A program made the position numbers and the translations under genes. The notes beneath the pieces were generated by a model. It worked only from the letters and a program-made list of their open reading frames with translations. It was not told where the DNA came from and did not search any database. A stretch of 21,435 nucleotides of DNA, taken from the IMG/VR virus record IMGVR_UViG_3300042868_007244, positions 1 through 21,435 of that record, one strand, 5' to 3'. Of the stretch, positions 4,746-12,737 are shown in pieces. This stretch comes from a virus. Each line of letters starts with the position of its first letter. Positions within the stretch are counted from its first letter, which is position 1.

Positions 4746-5489
4746 TCAATTTCCACCAGACTTTACAAAGGCATCTCGTTCGGCAAGCCAGATAGCATCT
4801 GCTTCAGGTGAAATGGTGTTGCCCATCCAAGGGCCGCCTAGCGTATAGTGCGCAATCTTCGCAGTTTGGATATCATACCCAGGCTCACCAATAAGGGCAT
4901 TCCACTCTCGTGGTAGCGCGCCAATATGCTTGTCAGGGTTTTTGATCCAGTCAAACCTATGTAAATCTCGCCCAGGCACAGAATTGATATGGGCAAGGTT
5001 CAAGCAATCATTCGCAAAATGATTGCAGTTGAAGGCCATGACTGAGGACCAATTTTTGAAACTATAGTGCGTCTGAATCTGTCCGTCCATCTTTAGCATA
5101 GTGGATGGGTTATACTCGTGCTTGACGCACATCACTGCATACTTGCTTTCTAGCAAGTCAAACAATTTCGCAATGTCCTCCAAGAACAGAACATCGCAAT
5201 CGACAAAGATGGCCCATCCGGCATAGCCATATTTTGCCCTGTGCAGGATGGGAGTCAAAAACCGGCTGATCGCGAACTCTGTAGACTGCGGGGCTTCTGA
5301 GATCACGTCCCACAGTTTGCCCTCTCGCGTTTCAGTCTGTCGCCAGATCATCCCTTGATCGCGCAAGTCATCAATTTTGAGAGGGACAACGCTAACGGGC
5401 ACAGAGGCCCGCCGCTTCAAACTGAACTCTGCGACCTTATACGCTTCGACTTCTCGGCTGTCGTAGCCCATATAAACGGTCGGCACCAT
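4746..5489 (-). CDS. Glycosyltransferase, GT-A fold (DxD)
   Basis: A 247-residue protein. The metal- and sugar-nucleotide-binding DxD motif is FVDCDVLF (Asp97 and Asp99), which follows an N-terminal beta-alpha segment starting VPTVYMGYDSRE. A late His-Tyr (AKIAHYTLGGPW) resembles the C-terminal metal-ligand His of GT8-like enzymes. The start at 5489 overlaps the methyltransferase stop (TAATG); an in-frame ATG three codons upstream is less likely. It forms a tight cassette with the FkbM methyltransferase and a second glycosyltransferase. The donor sugar and acceptor cannot be read from the sequence. Plausible acceptors are virion proteins or host surface glycans. Confidence 0.8.
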   Translation of the reverse strand: MVPTVYMGYDSREVEAYKVAEFSLKRRASVPVSVVPLKIDDLRDQGMIWRQTETREGKLWDVISEAPQSTEFAISRFLTPILHRAKYGYAGWAIFVDCDVLFLEDIAKLFDLLESKYAVMCVKHEYNPSTMLKMDGQIQTHYSFKNWSSVMAFNCNHFANDCLNLAHINSVPGRDLHRFDWIKNPDKHIGALPREWNALIGEPGYDIQTAKIAHYTLGGPWMGNTISPEADAIWLAERDAFVKSGGN

Positions 5490-6193
5490 TAGTCCCACCC
5501 AAGAATAAAATCGTCAACGACGCGCTGCTTAACTGTGGCGCCCCAAGACAAAAGCAGATCGAGTGCCGCGTACTGCTTCCACTCGAAGATATCCCACGGC
5601 TTTTGCTCGATACAAATAATAGGCTTGCATCGCCGGATTGTGCCCTCAGCGCCAAGAACGATGGGATATTCATACCCCTCAACGTCCATCTTGATCGCAC
5701 TTACAAAAGGGTGGTTCTCCGCATCGAGCGTAGTTAAGGGCACCGTGTAGTTGATCGAAGATGCCTCTCGCTTTGCGGCATCTTGCGAAGCGACATGGGT
5801 GCCCGCCGTAACGTCGGGGCGATACTCCATGACTACCTCGCCAATCGTATTACCTAGAGCAACCCGCCGCAGTTCGACGTTCGACGTGGGCTTCTCTGGA
5901 TGCTCGATGGTATTGAGCATGAAGCACCGTTGGTTGATCTCGATAGGCTCGTAGGCCACAACACGGTCAAAAGCACGGGCGAAGTGCATAGACCACATGC
6001 CAACATTCCCACCTACGTCCAGCACTAGGCTGCGTCGGTTTGAAGGCGTGTGGTTGAGCATAGCTACGAGGGTGTGAAGCTGGTAACTCCCCTCGCCCTT
6101 GCTGTTCTGCTTAGCAGCGCCTTCAAGGAAAGGCAGAAGGTGTTCCTCTGTGGCGGGGAGCCAAATCCCCGCCACCTTCTTGATATCTGTCAT
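5489..6193 (-). CDS. FkbM-family SAM-dependent methyltransferase
   Basis: A 234-residue protein with the SAM-binding motif I LDVGGNVG (residues 58-65), the acidic motif II VAYEP (79-83) and the FkbM signature IKMDVEGYE (167-175), which holds the conserved Asp-Glu pair. Family knowledge: FkbM enzymes mostly O-methylate sugars or polyketide hydroxyls. Lying between two glycosyltransferases with 1-nt overlaps on both sides, it probably methylates the glycan they build. No membrane or export signal is visible, so it would act in the cytoplasm. Confidence 0.87.
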   Translation of the reverse strand: MTDIKKVAGIWLPATEEHLLPFLEGAAKQNSKGEGSYQLHTLVAMLNHTPSNRRSLVLDVGGNVGMWSMHFARAFDRVVAYEPIEINQRCFMLNTIEHPEKPTSNVELRRVALGNTIGEVVMEYRPDVTAGTHVASQDAAKREASSINYTVPLTTLDAENHPFVSAIKMDVEGYEYPIVLGAEGTIRRCKPIICIEQKPWDIFEWKQYAALDLLLSWGATVKQRVVDDFILGWD

Positions 6194-6978
6194 CAGGCTT
6201 GCACCACCACATCAGAACTGTATGAAGCGCCCGCCTGCTTGCGTGCACCCTTCAAATGATCCACATACCCACGCCAATCAGAATTGACGATGGGGTGGCT
6301 TGTATTGAACGAGAGATCGTCTCCGAGATTGACGGCGCGCACCATGCCATCCTTCACCCCACCTGCCACAAGTGTATCGAACACATGGCAATCCGTCCAA
6401 GCGGGCAAACGGAAAACTTGGTCCTCAACATAGACCTGCCAGAAGATGCGGAGCATCGCCACGACATTGGCGTTGTTGACGCGGAACATAAGGATGCCCG
6501 CTTCTGTATGGTTATTGTTGCGAGGAAAATGCCCGATGTGTGCCCAGGTCGGGAACTTATCAACCAAGAACGCATCCGTAAGGGGCGTCTTGAATACCGT
6601 GTCCCCGTCAAACCAGACCAAGACTTCAGGCTGATCCTTCAAATCCAGTGCGCTAAAGATGCGGAGGGCCGCAGCAATCGCAGCGGGCTTATGGGAAAAC
6701 TTCACCGCGTCAAAACGATAGTCGTAGGTGCGCCCAAAGCGACCATGGACTACGGGGGAATTGTGCCGCGCCTTGAACTCCGTAAGGCTTGTTGCTTCCT
6801 CGTCCAGAGCGAAGAACTTCACAAGCGGAGTGTCTTCGGTATCGTGAAGAAGGGCCGTATCACTGAAAACCCAAAGTTGAGAATCGGCTAGTGGATTGGC
6901 GAGGTATGATTCAATCATATTCCTGCCATACGCCTCGTAGCCCTCTTGGCTAAAGGACGTAATCGCTAGATACTTCAT
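6193..6978 (-). CDS. Glycosyltransferase, GT-A fold, second of the cassette
   Basis: A 261-residue protein with the N-terminus KYLAITSFSQEGYEAYG and the metal-binding motif VWFDGDTVF (Asp124 and Asp126). A late WTDCHVFD segment may supply substrate-binding acids. It is only distantly like the other glycosyltransferase of the cassette, so the two probably make different linkages. It starts at an ATG with AGAGG 7 nt upstream and is the first gene of the cassette. Its stop overlaps the methyltransferase start (TGATG). Function as a sugar transferase is well supported; the acceptor is unknown. Confidence 0.8.
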   Translation of the reverse strand: MKYLAITSFSQEGYEAYGRNMIESYLANPLADSQLWVFSDTALLHDTEDTPLVKFFALDEEATSLTEFKARHNSPVVHGRFGRTYDYRFDAVKFSHKPAAIAAALRIFSALDLKDQPEVLVWFDGDTVFKTPLTDAFLVDKFPTWAHIGHFPRNNNHTEAGILMFRVNNANVVAMLRIFWQVYVEDQVFRLPAWTDCHVFDTLVAGGVKDGMVRAVNLGDDLSFNTSHPIVNSDWRGYVDHLKGARKQAGASYSSDVVVQA

Positions 6979-9418: not shown

Positions 9419-9835
9419 TTAGTCCTCGTGGTTGATGGTTGTTGCGTTGTTCGCCAACATGGCGATACGATTCTCAATAAACGCAAAAATCTTTGGCGCT
9501 CGTGTCGGCAACTCAGCTAGTCCTGTGCCAAGACCGTCCGTGGGCACCACTACCGTCTTTCCTATCATCATGAATGAGTATGCGATAGTAAGCGGAAACC
9601 GGATGGCATCCTCGACAAACTCAAAGTCTTCATCCTTAAAATAAGACGCTTTTTGCGTATCTGGTGCCCACTTTGTAGGCACCCCAAAGCAATTCGGGTG
9701 ATCCCGCATAACTCTTGCCTGTCCACCGTAGCCTTGGCGCCGCATATTGTCACCAAAAAGAAAAAGCGTATTCGGGAACCTTTCAAGCACATCTCGCTTA
9801 GAGATGTGCTTCTTGAAGATAAGCGTTCCTGTCAT
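9419..9835 (-). CDS. Conserved phage protein, DUF7831-like
   Basis: A 138-residue protein with two conserved-looking glycine-rich blocks: LFLFGDNMRRQGYGGQARVM (residues 24-43) and VVVPTDGLGTGLAELP (about 95-110). They match a family of small phage and bacterial proteins that I recall as DUF7831. The G-D-N and G-x-G-T-G loops resemble nucleotide or ADP-ribose-binding loops, but a macrodomain-like function is only a guess. It starts in an ATGA overlap with the polymerase stop. A perfect 11-bp hairpin lies in its codons 9-17. Location beside polymerase and gapR suggests a replication or nucleotide-metabolism role. Confidence 0.65.
   Translation of the reverse strand: MTGTLIFKKHISKRDVLERFPNTLFLFGDNMRRQGYGGQARVMRDHPNCFGVPTKWAPDTQKASYFKDEDFEFVEDAIRFPLTIAYSFMMIGKTVVVPTDGLGTGLAELPTRAPKIFAFIENRIAMLANNATTINHED
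9785..9811 (-). repeat. Perfect 11-bp hairpin inside 5' end of DUF7831-like gene
   Basis: Arms AAGCACATCTC (9785-9795) and GAGATGTGCTT (9801-9811) are exact complements around a 5-nt loop. The element is about 25 nt after the ATG. It could pause ribosomes or polymerase, or help end polymerase-only messages. There is no U-tract, so it is not a classic terminator. Confidence 0.5.
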
Positions 9836-12288
9836 TTTCTATACCTTTTACCAGACCAGCCTTCAGCCTTGACGGGCAGCCCTGCCGCCCAATCGGGCGT
9901 GGCGGCTACCAACGCTTCATACTCTGCCACGCTTCCGTAGCCCTCGTCAACCTCGGAAACCACTTCGTCATGAACTGTCAACAACACGGGATAGTTGTGT
10001 TCCTCAAGTCGGAACATTGACGATATCATGAGGTCGCGCGAAACGGCTTGCACGACATTCTCGGTAAAGGTGCCAGGGCTTATGGTGGCGCGTTCCCACT
10101 TGCGGGTAAGAGCGTTAACAGCGCTGATCTCGACGCCGTTCTTCATCTCGCCCCAAGGCGTCTTGACCTTGCAGACGCGGGCTTCTGGGTAGTTGAGCGC
10201 ACGGCCTGACGGTAGAAGCAAGCGCAAGTTGCCATCGCGCATCCTAAACTTCATGTTCCGCAGCGTGACCACGCTGTTGGGGTTGCTGATCGCCCGCATC
10301 GCGGCGCGCTCCAAGGCATACCAAAATTTGGGGATTTGGCTGTAGGTTTCACGATACAAAGTAACGACGCGCTTGTATTCTTCTTCTTCCAAGAAAATCT
10401 GGTCCTTGGCGCAAGTCAAAGCGAACTTAGAGGCGCCCATGGCGTAGCCCAGACCCAATATACAATTATGAACAATTAAGGGTCCGCGATCCGTGTGTAT
10501 CATGAACCTGTTGCGCGGCCCCGCATTTACAAGATCGTAGACGGGCTTCAAGGTCTTGGATTCTACGTTGCAGTTCCCCGACACTCCGCCTATTGTTGAC
10601 GTTATCTTTACGGGAGACAAACCGCAAATTTCCGGGGAGATAGCCGAGATTGTTGTCAGCCCTATCAAGCTCAAACTCAGGGACATCCCAGTTTTCAAGA
10701 CTGAGCAGATACTTGAGAAATCCCCTTCGGTCTTTGATCCAAGGCTCGTAGACACGCAAACCCCGTCCACCATAATGCGCGTATCCTGAATCGTTGGGAT
10801 TGCAGCACCTGTTGATGATCGCAGATATCCGGTTAAGGAGCCGCGTCCTATGGTCATCTTCGGGGCAAATATCCGCATAACCCCAAAAATTCTTTCGCGT
10901 AGTTCCGCTTTTAGTGTTGGCGCACAGCGCGCATCGCGTGCTGGTGAAATTTCTATACGAGTTATTTGGCACGGAGTATTCTCCGGGGCTGCAATCGCAC
11001 TGGACAATAAGGCCCGCGATCCCTCCCCTGACTCCAATAAAATATCCGGTGACGGTAAGTTTCCCGCTGCGGTGGCCAATGCTAGGGGTAGGGAATCTCT
11101 GTCTTGCGCCAGAAACCCGGCGTCCAACCAACTCGTCCCGCACAACACTCGATGATCCGGAGTCAACCAAATCCCGCACAAAGGCAACACGCTTCGCGTG
11201 CAATTCGACAAGACTCCCAGATGCTCTACCCATTCTTCACCGTCCCAAACTTTCATATCAAAAGTGATTTGTTCTATCGGGACAAGCCCGTGGTCCGTAT
11301 ATACCAGAGTCCCTTCGGCAATGCACGCCTTTCCTAGTTGCCTCTCTTTAGGATTGTCCTTTTTATTAAGAGGTTTTTTATAAACCAGGCTCGCAAAGTT
11401 GCAGTAAATGTCATCGCCGTCTGCAAACTGGTCAACAAGGTCTTGCTGCCCCGCCAACCACGCCAGAACTCGGGCTTCGATGGCCGCAAAGTCTGCCGCG
11501 TAAAGGACTTTACCTTCCGCCGCCATAACAAGGCTGCGGATCACATCAGCGGCTACGGTCTGCACTGGACCAAAGCACATCTCAATAAGGTCAATATCCC
11601 CCTTCTTAATATAAGGGATTGCGTCTTCGGGCTGTTTGAGGATTTCAGGGCGGGGTAGGTTTTGCAACTGAACGCCCTTACCCGAGAAGCGGCCTGTCGA
11701 TGCCCCGTGGTAGAGCAAGTTGCCGTGGATGCGGCCTTCGCTGTCAGCCATGTTGAGGATGGCTTGCAGCTTCTTGGTAGAGGACTTGGCGCCGATCTGG
11801 CGTATCTCTAGGGCTTCGCGCACCTGTGGCGGTAGCGACGTGTCCTTGAGCGCGTTCACGATGCCTTGCTTATCGAGGCTCGTGAAATGGCAGCCTTGCA
11901 TACCGAACCACTGGATCATCTTGTCACGTTGGTTGATCGTGGTGACAAGACCATTAGTGATTTTAGCGATACGCTCGTTAAGCCGCCCACCCGCCTTCTC
12001 CACCAACTCCAAGGCCATGCGCGTAGTTTCAAGGTCTACGCTTATACCTCTGTCGTTGATAGTTTGGTCAAGCAGATAGACTTGCCGCTCCGATGGAGAA
12101 AGCGGGTAAAGTTTTGTCTCGGCTAGGCGCTCCGCCTCTACGTCCGTGCGGCAATATTGATATAGTTTTTCAAGGCGCGCGAGATATTCGGCACGCTGCT
12201 TTTCGCGTGTCGCTTCTGTCTTGCCAGTGATTTCAAAGTCGTCCCACCAACGGACGTGGGCGAGATCGTCGTCATCGTCATCTATCAC
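9832..12288 (-). CDS. Family A DNA polymerase, polymerase ORF with intein
   Basis: An 818-residue precursor; removal of a 287-residue intein leaves 531 residues. It opens with the end of the 3'-5' exonuclease domain (Exo III-type YCRTDVEAE, residues 45-53), then the polymerase: motif A DFAAIEARV (266-274), motif B K-ACILGLGYAMG (320-321 joined to 609-617) and motif C TVHDEVV (771-777). Motif A D266 and motif C D774 are present. The start is a GTG at 12288, overlapping the stop of the exonuclease ORF (GTGA), with GGAAGGGG about 10 nt upstream. Residues 3-8 are a run of Asp that may be linker. The reading frame is open throughout the intein. Activity depends on intein splicing, because the intein interrupts the active-site O helix. 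Full polymerase function probably also needs the separate ORF at 12285-12737. Confidence 0.92.
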   Translation of the reverse strand: MIDDDDDDLAHVRWWDDFEITGKTEATREKQRAEYLARLEKLYQYCRTDVEAERLAETKLYPLSPSERQVYLLDQTINDRGISVDLETTRMALELVEKAGGRLNERIAKITNGLVTTINQRDKMIQWFGMQGCHFTSLDKQGIVNALKDTSLPPQVREALEIRQIGAKSSTKKLQAILNMADSEGRIHGNLLYHGASTGRFSGKGVQLQNLPRPEILKQPEDAIPYIKKGDIDLIEMCFGPVQTVAADVIRSLVMAAEGKVLYAADFAAIEARVLAWLAGQQDLVDQFADGDDIYCNFASLVYKKPLNKKDNPKERQLGKACIAEGTLVYTDHGLVPIEQITFDMKVWDGEEWVEHLGVLSNCTRSVLPLCGIWLTPDHRVLCGTSWLDAGFLAQDRDSLPLALATAAGNLPSPDILLESGEGSRALLSSAIAAPENTPCQITRIEISPARDARCAPTLKAELRERIFGVMRIFAPKMTIGRGSLTGYLRSSTGAAIPTIQDTRIMVDGVCVSTSLGSKTEGDFSSICSVLKTGMSLSLSLIGLTTISAISPEICGLSPVKITSTIGGVSGNCNVESKTLKPVYDLVNAGPRNRFMIHTDRGPLIVHNCILGLGYAMGASKFALTCAKDQIFLEEEEYKRVVTLYRETYSQIPKFWYALERAAMRAISNPNSVVTLRNMKFRMRDGNLRLLLPSGRALNYPEARVCKVKTPWGEMKNGVEISAVNALTRKWERATISPGTFTENVVQAVSRDLMISSMFRLEEHNYPVLLTVHDEVVSEVDEGYGSVAEYEALVAATPDWAAGLPVKAEGWSGKRYRK
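10465..11325 (-). mobile_element. Intein in polymerase motif B
   Basis: The intein spans polymerase residues 322-608 (287 residues). Block A is CIAEGTLVYTDHGLVPIE with Cys1. Block B is GIWLTPDHRVLC, with the Thr-x-x-His signature. Block F is KPVYDLVNAGPRNRF (581-595). Block G is LIVHN followed by Cys609 as the +1 nucleophile. All catalytic residues for splicing are present. The exteins join as GKA-CIL, restoring the motif B helix. Between blocks B and F, about 200 residues show no LAGLIDADG or HNH motif in the polymerase frame; the stretch is Ser/Thr/Ile-rich and low in information. Here another frame encodes an HNH endonuclease. This is therefore a splicing-competent intein whose homing enzyme appears to be encoded out of frame. 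Confidence 0.93.
10466..11233 (-). CDS. HNH homing endonuclease nested out of frame in the intein
   Basis: A 255-codon ORF on the same strand as the polymerase but in the frame shifted by -1 (equivalently +2). Residues 52-64 (IGHRSGKLTVTGY) and the cysteines Cys79, Cys81, Cys101 and Cys104 form a zinc-ribbon-like N-terminal part. Residues 129-216 match the phage HNH homing nuclease pattern: RLLNRISAIINRCCNPN, HYGGRGLRVYEPW, then FELDRADNNLGYLPGNLRF and DNVNNRR. A short coiled coil (219-233) ends it. The TAA stop (10468-10466) overlaps the last two intein codons, His607-Asn608. ATG 11233 has a weak GGTGAAGA upstream; the first 40 residues look like shadow sequence, so the true start could be an internal GTG, for instance codon 31. 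Expected role: cut intein-less polymerase genes to drive intein homing. Confidence 0.8.
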   Translation of the reverse strand: MGRASGSLVELHAKRVAFVRDLVDSGSSSVVRDELVGRRVSGARQRFPTPSIGHRSGKLTVTGYFIGVRGGIAGLIVQCDCSPGEYSVPNNSYRNFTSTRCALCANTKSGTTRKNFWGYADICPEDDHRTRLLNRISAIINRCCNPNDSGYAHYGGRGLRVYEPWIKDRRGFLKYLLSLENWDVPEFELDRADNNLGYLPGNLRFVSRKDNVNNRRSVGELQRRIQDLEARLRSCKCGAAQQVHDTHGSRTLNCS

Positions 12289-12737
12289 GCGACTTTCTGC
12301 CCCTTCCTTGGCTTCGTCATCTTCAACATGTGCCTGCTACCTTCCATGTCCTTTTGGATCGGCAGGCTAAGTGCCTCACCAAGCCCTTCTAGTGACCGTG
12401 GAAGGGCCATGGCTGCGGCCATAGCAGCCGTGCAGAACCATTGCTCCAACGCCACAGGGGCGCAGCCGTAGCGCGCTACGGCGATGTTCTTGGTAATCAG
12501 GCGTTCGAACTGCGCGTTGTGCGCAAAGATCGGAAAGCCCTGCCTGATATGCTCGTTCAGTTCCACGGGCCACGGGAAGTCTGGCGTCCATATCTGGACA
12601 GGCTCGTTATTGCGCGCAAACCCCATGCACAGAATGTCGGTGCTGGGGTGTTCGGCATAGCGATAGACGCCAACGAGTTTAAGGTTGGCGGTGGATTTGG
12701 TTTCGTAGTCGATGTGATATGTGGGTGTATCGTGCAT
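12285..12737 (-). CDS. Family A DNA polymerase, 3'-5' exonuclease ORF
   Basis: A 150-residue protein that is the N-terminal part of a phage family A polymerase. Exo I is YHIDYETKS (Asp10 and Glu12), Exo II is AHNAQFERL, and the end MLKMTKPRK is the linker normally leading to Exo III. Exo III lies in the next ORF, so the proofreading site must be assembled from two chains. Together with the spliced 531-residue polymerase part this totals about 680 residues, a usual size for an unsplit phage enzyme. The stop overlaps the GTG of the polymerase ORF by 4 nt. There is no Shine-Dalgarno: the ATG comes directly after the T-tract of the terminator at 12746-12769. No slippery heptamer is visible at the overlap, so coupled translation is more likely than programmed frameshifting. 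Confidence 0.85.
   Translation of the reverse strand: MHDTPTYHIDYETKSTANLKLVGVYRYAEHPSTDILCMGFARNNEPVQIWTPDFPWPVELNEHIRQGFPIFAHNAQFERLITKNIAVARYGCAPVALEQWFCTAAMAAAMALPRSLEGLGEALSLPIQKDMEGSRHMLKMTKPRKGQKVA

Follow-up and report, generated by a model that had tools for sequence, protein, structure and literature searches.

The virus record IMGVR_UViG_3300042868_007244, analyzed here over its whole length of 21,435 bases (hereafter, the window), carries a family-A DNA polymerase gene on the minus strand whose open reading frame (ORF; 9832-12288) runs right through an intein (10465-11325), and a second ORF for an HNH-family protein overlaps the intein out of frame. We interpret this as a mobile intein with splicing and homing coded in two overlapping frames, a reading to which we give a probability of roughly 0.86, with splicing, nuclease activity, and internal initiation as predicted functions. 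The basis is computational: both frames are open and conserved, selection acts on both products, the anatomy is that of an intein, and alleles with and without the element carry a footprint at the insertion site. In the mechanism we propose, the polymerase frame would give a HINT splicing domain interrupted by a long disordered linker, and self-excision would restore polymerase motif B. The -1 frame, from an internal start inside WDGEEWV, would give a separate 255-residue HNH-family nuclease. This nuclease would cut intein-less polymerase alleles, and repair from an intein-carrying copy would then spread the whole element.

The intein and the out-of-frame HNH protein

A first-pass annotation, made from the DNA alone, had described a polymerase frame open through a full intein with blocks A, B, F, and G intact, and we recovered the ORFs, frames, and coordinates as claimed. 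Across 57 aligned intein homologues, C1, T55, H58, D264, and N287 are invariant and H286 is conserved in at least 90%; the +1 residue is Cys in the window and almost all loci. In the AlphaFold2 (AF2) model, intein residues 1-96 and 252-287 are confidently folded as a HINT domain, with mean predicted local distance difference test (pLDDT) scores mostly above 90 for the blocks. The best Foldseek matches for this folded part were to the Mtu RecA mini-intein (probability 1.00, E 6e-3). The 155-residue linker between the two folded parts (residues 97-251) has pLDDT below 50 and is predicted to be disordered. It matched no family in the profile libraries, so an in-frame endonuclease between blocks B and F is absent, in agreement with the earlier statement that the linker holds no nuclease motif.

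The insertion point lies between RQLGKA and C ILGLGY of the polymerase, in motif B of family-A DNA polymerases, and intein-less alleles exist at the same site (loci L096, L097, and L100-L104). By its block A, TxxH motif, blocks F/G, HINT fold, and empty alleles, the element is a class 1 intein, for which splicing is predicted. Pfam and NCBIfam did not recognize it. No split-intein or fractured-gene layout was found at the window site, where the host frame is continuous and there are no two precursor ORFs.

The second ORF, reported earlier as 255 codons on the same strand in another frame, was recovered in the -1 frame. Its ATG (11231-11233) lies at about polymerase codon 353, and its TAA stop (10466-10468) is formed within the last intein codons, CAT AAT (His-Asn), which is the overlap that had been pointed out. 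The product matched PHROG 374 (E 3e-26) and PHROG 3377 (E 1e-17), both "HNH endonuclease", and also PHROG 2081. NCBIfam did not recognize it, and a plasmid search with it gave distant, partial matches only. The four zinc-ribbon cysteines and residues D190, R191, N202, and R216 are invariant in 57/57 HNH homologues. The AF2 model is folded (mean pLDDT 82), with a predicted beta-beta-alpha hairpin at the core (strands 188-191 and 203-206, helix 208-213), and its structural neighbors were models of viral proteins annotated as HNH. A PDB sequence search with the HNH profile gave only weak hits to cytochrome c oxidase 5B, through the zinc ribbon, and these were not used.

Conservation, selection, and expression of the two frames

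We then examined the layout across relatives, reading the best 80 loci per scan. Nearly all of the 40 best phage matches listed for the HNH protein fall in records that carry a DNA polymerase annotation. EBPR siphovirus 2, Vibrio phage 97.13, Pseudomonas MR14, Sodalis SO-1, and the Salmonella phages Ent1 and Ijeoma share the register of the window, with neither frame interrupted. Phages of Salmonella, Escherichia, Sodalis, Pseudomonas, and Vibrio show this register, and so do prophages. In IMG/VR, the best 80 loci found with the HNH protein show the same dual-frame layout, L030 alone having one stop in the HNH frame; the intein-first scan, whose query was the WDGxxWVxH peptide, placed HNH in the -1 frame in 79/79 loci retrieved (547 relatives in all). 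The host frame is open in all complete site-1 loci, where HNH is always -1 in this clade. Here "complete" means that both intein ends fall within one ORF, which leaves out the site-3 split inteins and L032, a site-1 locus with an open frame in which the pattern failed to detect an end. Among loci from bacterial genomes, 16/17 are dual-coded, eight in the -1 and eight in the +1 frame. The +1 loci (L192-L194, L196-L200), some of them in complete chromosomes, use the same polymerase site and come from Bacillota, Actinomycetaceae, and Spirochaetaceae.

These comparisons confirm that the dual-frame layout is real and not an error. Had sequencing or assembly frameshifts masked a normal in-frame HNH intein, compensating indels would be expected. 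The homologues hold none: the complete site-1 loci examined keep the register and both open frames, apart from L030 with its single HNH-frame stop. Independent isolate genomes, metagenomes, and complete chromosomes of bacteria all have the identical register, which refutes the error explanation, and we give it virtually no weight.

Openness of the host frame was also compared with a null model. In the window, 0 polymerase-frame stops occur over HNH against 5.4 expected (P = 0.0026), the null being 20,000 synonymous recodings of HNH, of which 0.26% leave the polymerase frame open. The host frame is free of stops in all 67 nonredundant homologous overlaps, for which 359 are expected. The unused third frame of the same overlaps is at expectation (1209 stops, 1163 expected). 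Twelve +1 elements gave 0 host-frame stops against 107 expected and 174 against 165 in the third frame, and three split-intein loci, in which the host frame is released, have stops at the null level.

Substitution rates were then taken from 14 close pairs, each class being expressed relative to the doubly silent rate (SS); these ratios are approximate because each region offers only about 8 to 37 doubly silent differences. In the linker, changes nonsynonymous for HNH and synonymous for the host (NS) ran at 0.15 of SS (0.11-0.19), and changes nonsynonymous for the host and synonymous for HNH (SN) at 0.66 (0.52-0.89), a weak constraint. The corresponding ratios were 0.25 and 0.20 in the N-terminal overlap, with both frames constrained, and 0.44 and 0.31 in the C-terminal overlap. 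Strong purifying selection in the linker is thus confined to the HNH frame, answering the question of which frame is the conserved one, and both flanks are constrained in both frames. The linker DNA therefore serves the nuclease and must merely stay open for the polymerase, and the block A-B and F-G regions serve both. The first-pass proposal that splicing and homing are dual-coded in the same DNA draws support from the conserved open frames and from this selection, the functions themselves being predicted.

Two further explanations have to be set against these data. The HNH frame might be a dead relic, or never translated, its openness merely historical. The stop in L030 would suit such a history, but the NS/SS of 0.15 in close pairs, the invariance of zinc-ribbon and core residues over 57 diverged members, a selected start codon, and a recent homing footprint (see below) all speak against it, and we regard it as very improbable. 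Alternatively, the insert could be a group I intron that encodes the HNH ORF and is removed by RNA splicing, as the SO-1 record suggests in annotating a "type I self-splicing intron". No Rfam match was found in the window at the gathering score or, even with E values up to 1 admitted, in six homologous loci. The invariant intein blocks, the HINT fold, the constraint on the polymerase frame in the N-terminal overlap, and the open host frame of all complete site-1 loci likewise contradict an intron, which we judge more improbable still.

Having two products overlap in this way raises the matter of how the second would be made. The HNH start is an NTG formed from the Trp codon of WDGxEWV and the preceding base; over 80 loci it is ATG in 54, GTG in 21, TTG in 4, and CTG in 1, and many of the loci starting with GTG or TTG have an ATG two codons further on. 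ATG was found in 37/59 cases, against 18 expected from the codons that the N-extein uses for these residues. Host-silent changes that create an HNH-frame stop occur at a rate of 0.39 upstream of the start and 0.014 after it, and in the window and several other loci the HNH frame closes no more than one codon before its start. No conserved slippery site was found, X_XXY_YYZ heptamers being present in just 9/62 loci. The ATG bias, the avoidance of stops from the start onward, and the lack of a conserved slippery heptamer favor internal initiation over frameshifting. Internal initiation, already suggested in the first-pass annotation, thus appears to be the best-supported route to the HNH protein.

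Under programmed -1 frameshifting, the polymerase frame would instead lead into an intein-N/HNH fusion that terminates before the end of block G. The -1 position of HNH in all site-1 elements of this clade is what such a mechanism would require, but it is at odds with the scarcity of slippery heptamers, the closed frame just upstream, and the bias to ATG; stop avoidance, moreover, begins at the ATG and not earlier, and other clades use the +1 frame. We consider frameshifting unlikely.

Homing, counter-evidence, and origins

Seven viruses with closely related C-exteins (protein identity 86-96%) lack the intein, and their empty alleles read GKA followed by S/A-VLGLGY. One comparison is between intein-carrying L008 and intein-less L096. 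These are 97-100% identical beginning about 210 bases upstream of the site, only 50-70% identical over the 60 bases before it, different at six of the first nine bases past it, and 100% identical over some 200 bases downstream from a few bases past the site. This is the footprint that coconversion would be expected to leave, and, with the near-identical intein-less viruses, it suggests that the composite element homes. In several pairs the inteins are 99% identical and the exteins 84-94%. Distances of HNH and HINT remained correlated after correction for the exteins (partial r 0.44, permutation p 0.001), which argues that both parts travel together.

Several points weigh against a dual-coded homing intein. 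The first-pass annotation had seen a zinc-ribbon-like part, to which the four invariant cysteines correspond, and a clear HNH-family core. The latter rests on the PHROG profiles and the predicted beta-beta-alpha hairpin, but the first His, canonical in HNH motifs, is absent, its place being taken by an invariant Asp-Arg (LDR, 57/57; the related L051 nuclease likewise reads LDR). Because of this replacement, we can only infer catalytic competence. The HNH protein matched no HNH family in Pfam, and its model had no significant Foldseek match in the PDB. In roughly one-third of loci the start position is occupied by GTG, TTG, or CTG, and the Shine-Dalgarno-like GGNGARGA upstream is largely dictated by the WDG(E) residues that it encodes and so is by itself no proof of a ribosome-binding site. 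The intein-first scan may favor this class, because its query peptide contains the HNH start. Finally, the coconversion footprint is by itself silent on which nuclease made the cut.

To place the nuclease, a tree of 59 nuclease sequences was built, in which the -1 group forms a single clade (97/87; 98% of bootstrap trees). The +1 group requires three changes, at least two of them forced by well-supported branches, and part of it lies among free-standing genes. The tree suggests that out-of-frame capture took place at least twice, and the dual-frame arrangement, in its -1 and +1 forms, probably arose at least twice. The hosts of +1 elements include DNA polymerase at site 2 (APSE-1 P45/P46, Caulobacter RLK, Shewanella SFCi1), a SNF2-type helicase, and the terminase large subunit. 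Of 80 loci from the wider nuclease family, 13 have the nuclease out of frame within a host ORF that bears an intein, and the other 67 do not; 3 of the 13 were assigned by eye, the pattern having missed a WDG.

On balance we lean toward dual-coded inteins being a general, overlooked class of mobile element. In this scheme, the intein linker would have acquired an out-of-frame HNH gene on at least two or three separate occasions (the -1 clade, and +1 in two or more clades), in DNA polymerase at several sites, SNF2-type helicase, and terminase, and the overlap would have been kept for long. Expression of the nuclease would be freed from splicing, and a break in the host frame would offer a natural route to split inteins.

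Related loci add further observations. A dual-coded intein lies in the terminase large subunit in L265 and in an unidentified protein in L253. Four polymerase genes hold two dual-coded inteins each: L047 (5085-5942), L057, L059, and L023 (1382-2341), and in the first three the HNH frames of the paired inteins are in opposite relative frames. Another polymerase site, TGR...NxQNLP, carries split inteins in the order N-half ORF, overlapping endonuclease ORF, C-half ORF; the nuclease is HNH in L024, L027, L030, and L087 and GIY-YIG in L036 and L084, and host-frame stops in these split loci are at the null level.

Comparison with known systems and features of the locus

Canonical homing inteins, with an in-frame LAGLIDADG or HNH endonuclease between blocks B and F, share with the window element HINT blocks A, B, F, and G, a site in a catalytic motif, and presence/absence alleles. 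They differ from the window element, whose nuclease has an ORF of its own in a different frame. Fractured genes, reportedly described by Dassa et al. in 2009 (cited in PMC10448857), combine split inteins with a free-standing homing endonuclease gene between them. They resemble the window in pairing an intein with a separately translated (here predicted) endonuclease in a phage polymerase, and some of the same loci carry a second polymerase site split in that way, but at the site in the window the host frame runs on without a break and covers the nuclease ORF in full.

A review (PMC3943268) describes the endonucleases of inteins as being translated in fusion with the intein itself. That textbook rule, in which the nuclease is part of the intein polypeptide, is broken by the dual-frame layout. 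Two unrelated predicted activities occupy overlapping frames with a division of labor, the zinc ribbon and HNH-like core lying opposite the disordered linker. The result is a widespread prokaryotic overlapping-gene pair with selection measurable in both frames, and it hints at an origin for split inteins with free-standing nucleases. Laboratory coliphages of the Dhillonvirus type make it easy to culture as a model.

The nearest published case comes from mycobacteriophage DNA methylases: the ShiLan domain, a coding insertion with an HNH gene in another frame, is according to its authors neither intein nor intron (Arsenault, Gosselin, Gogarten 2025, PMC11855218). There too (gp65, JN020143), the insertion has no host-frame stop, the hidden HNH ORF is -1 and ends ...TAAC, and a disjunct distribution suggests homing. 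It has no splicing domain, whereas the window has a full HINT intein; gp65 did not match our intein and nuclease profiles, and the two nucleases are not detectably related (hhalign probability 0.2).

The "intein-containing DNA polymerase" of Jerseyvirus and Dhillonvirus (Ent1 gp37; SO-1 gp38/gp39) and APSE-1 P45/P46 belong to the same class, with an overlapping HNH frame. Many "intein-only" phage annotations are thereby explained. In the SO-1 and APSE-1 database records, the overlapping HNH ORF is already entered as a gene of its own. The open full-text literature held no report of an out-of-frame nuclease in an intein, InBase and closed-access papers being outside the scope of that search. 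As far as searched, then, the HNH overlap is recorded in databases yet without interpretation in the literature. Three records are likely misannotated: Ent1 gp37 (L005), where the intein is described as "encoding splicing domains" and the nuclease omitted; SO-1 gp38/gp39 (L004), with its self-splicing intron; and APSE-1 P46 (L089), annotated from an internal start.

Table 1. Coordinates of the polymerase, intein, and HNH features in the window.
Feature	Position	Strand	Evidence
N-extein, family-A DNA polymerase ending RQLGKA	11326..12288	-	Pfam PF00476 E 2e-24, PHROG 17 E 2e-81
Intein, 287 codons, Cys1 to Asn287	10465..11325	-	57-member alignment, AF2 HINT fold, Foldseek
Intein block A, CIAEGTLVYT	11296..11325	-	Alignment
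Intein block B, TPDHRV	11146..11163	-	Alignment
Intein block F, DLVNAGPRNRF	10504..10536	-	Alignment
Intein block G, LIVHN, then Cys+1	10465..10479	-	Alignment; boundary fixed by empty-site alleles
Polymerase-frame linker, intein residues 97-251, predicted disordered	10573..11037	-	pLDDT <50; SN/SS 0.66
Out-of-frame HNH-family ORF, 255 codons, -1 relative to polymerase frame	10466..11233	-	PHROG 374, selection, AF2
GGGACGGTGAAGA, Shine-Dalgarno-like stretch within WDGEEW codons, directly 5' of HNH ATG	11234..11246	-	
Zinc-ribbon cysteines of HNH protein, C79, C81, C101, C104	10922..10999	-	Invariant 57/57
HNH-like core, H128 to R216, LDR...N202...N211/N214	10586..10852	-	Alignment, AF2
C-extein of polymerase, begins CILGLGYAMG	9832..10464	-	PHROG 10285/7766; 13 relatives, 7 without intein

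The exonuclease part of the polymerase is a separate ORF (12285-12737, minus strand), and its stop codon shares bases with the GTG that starts the polymerase ORF (GTGA). In relatives with and without the intein, the polymerase ORF likewise opens downstream of the exonuclease part; because intein-less relatives also show it, this gene split is unrelated to the intein. Adjoining the polymerase, the ORF at 9419-9835 (minus strand) matches DUF7831 (E 3e-36). Between the head-tail and replication genes (4746-6978, minus strand) lie three consecutive ORFs, which by eye only appear to be one FkbM-type methyltransferase-like and two glycosyltransferase-like genes.

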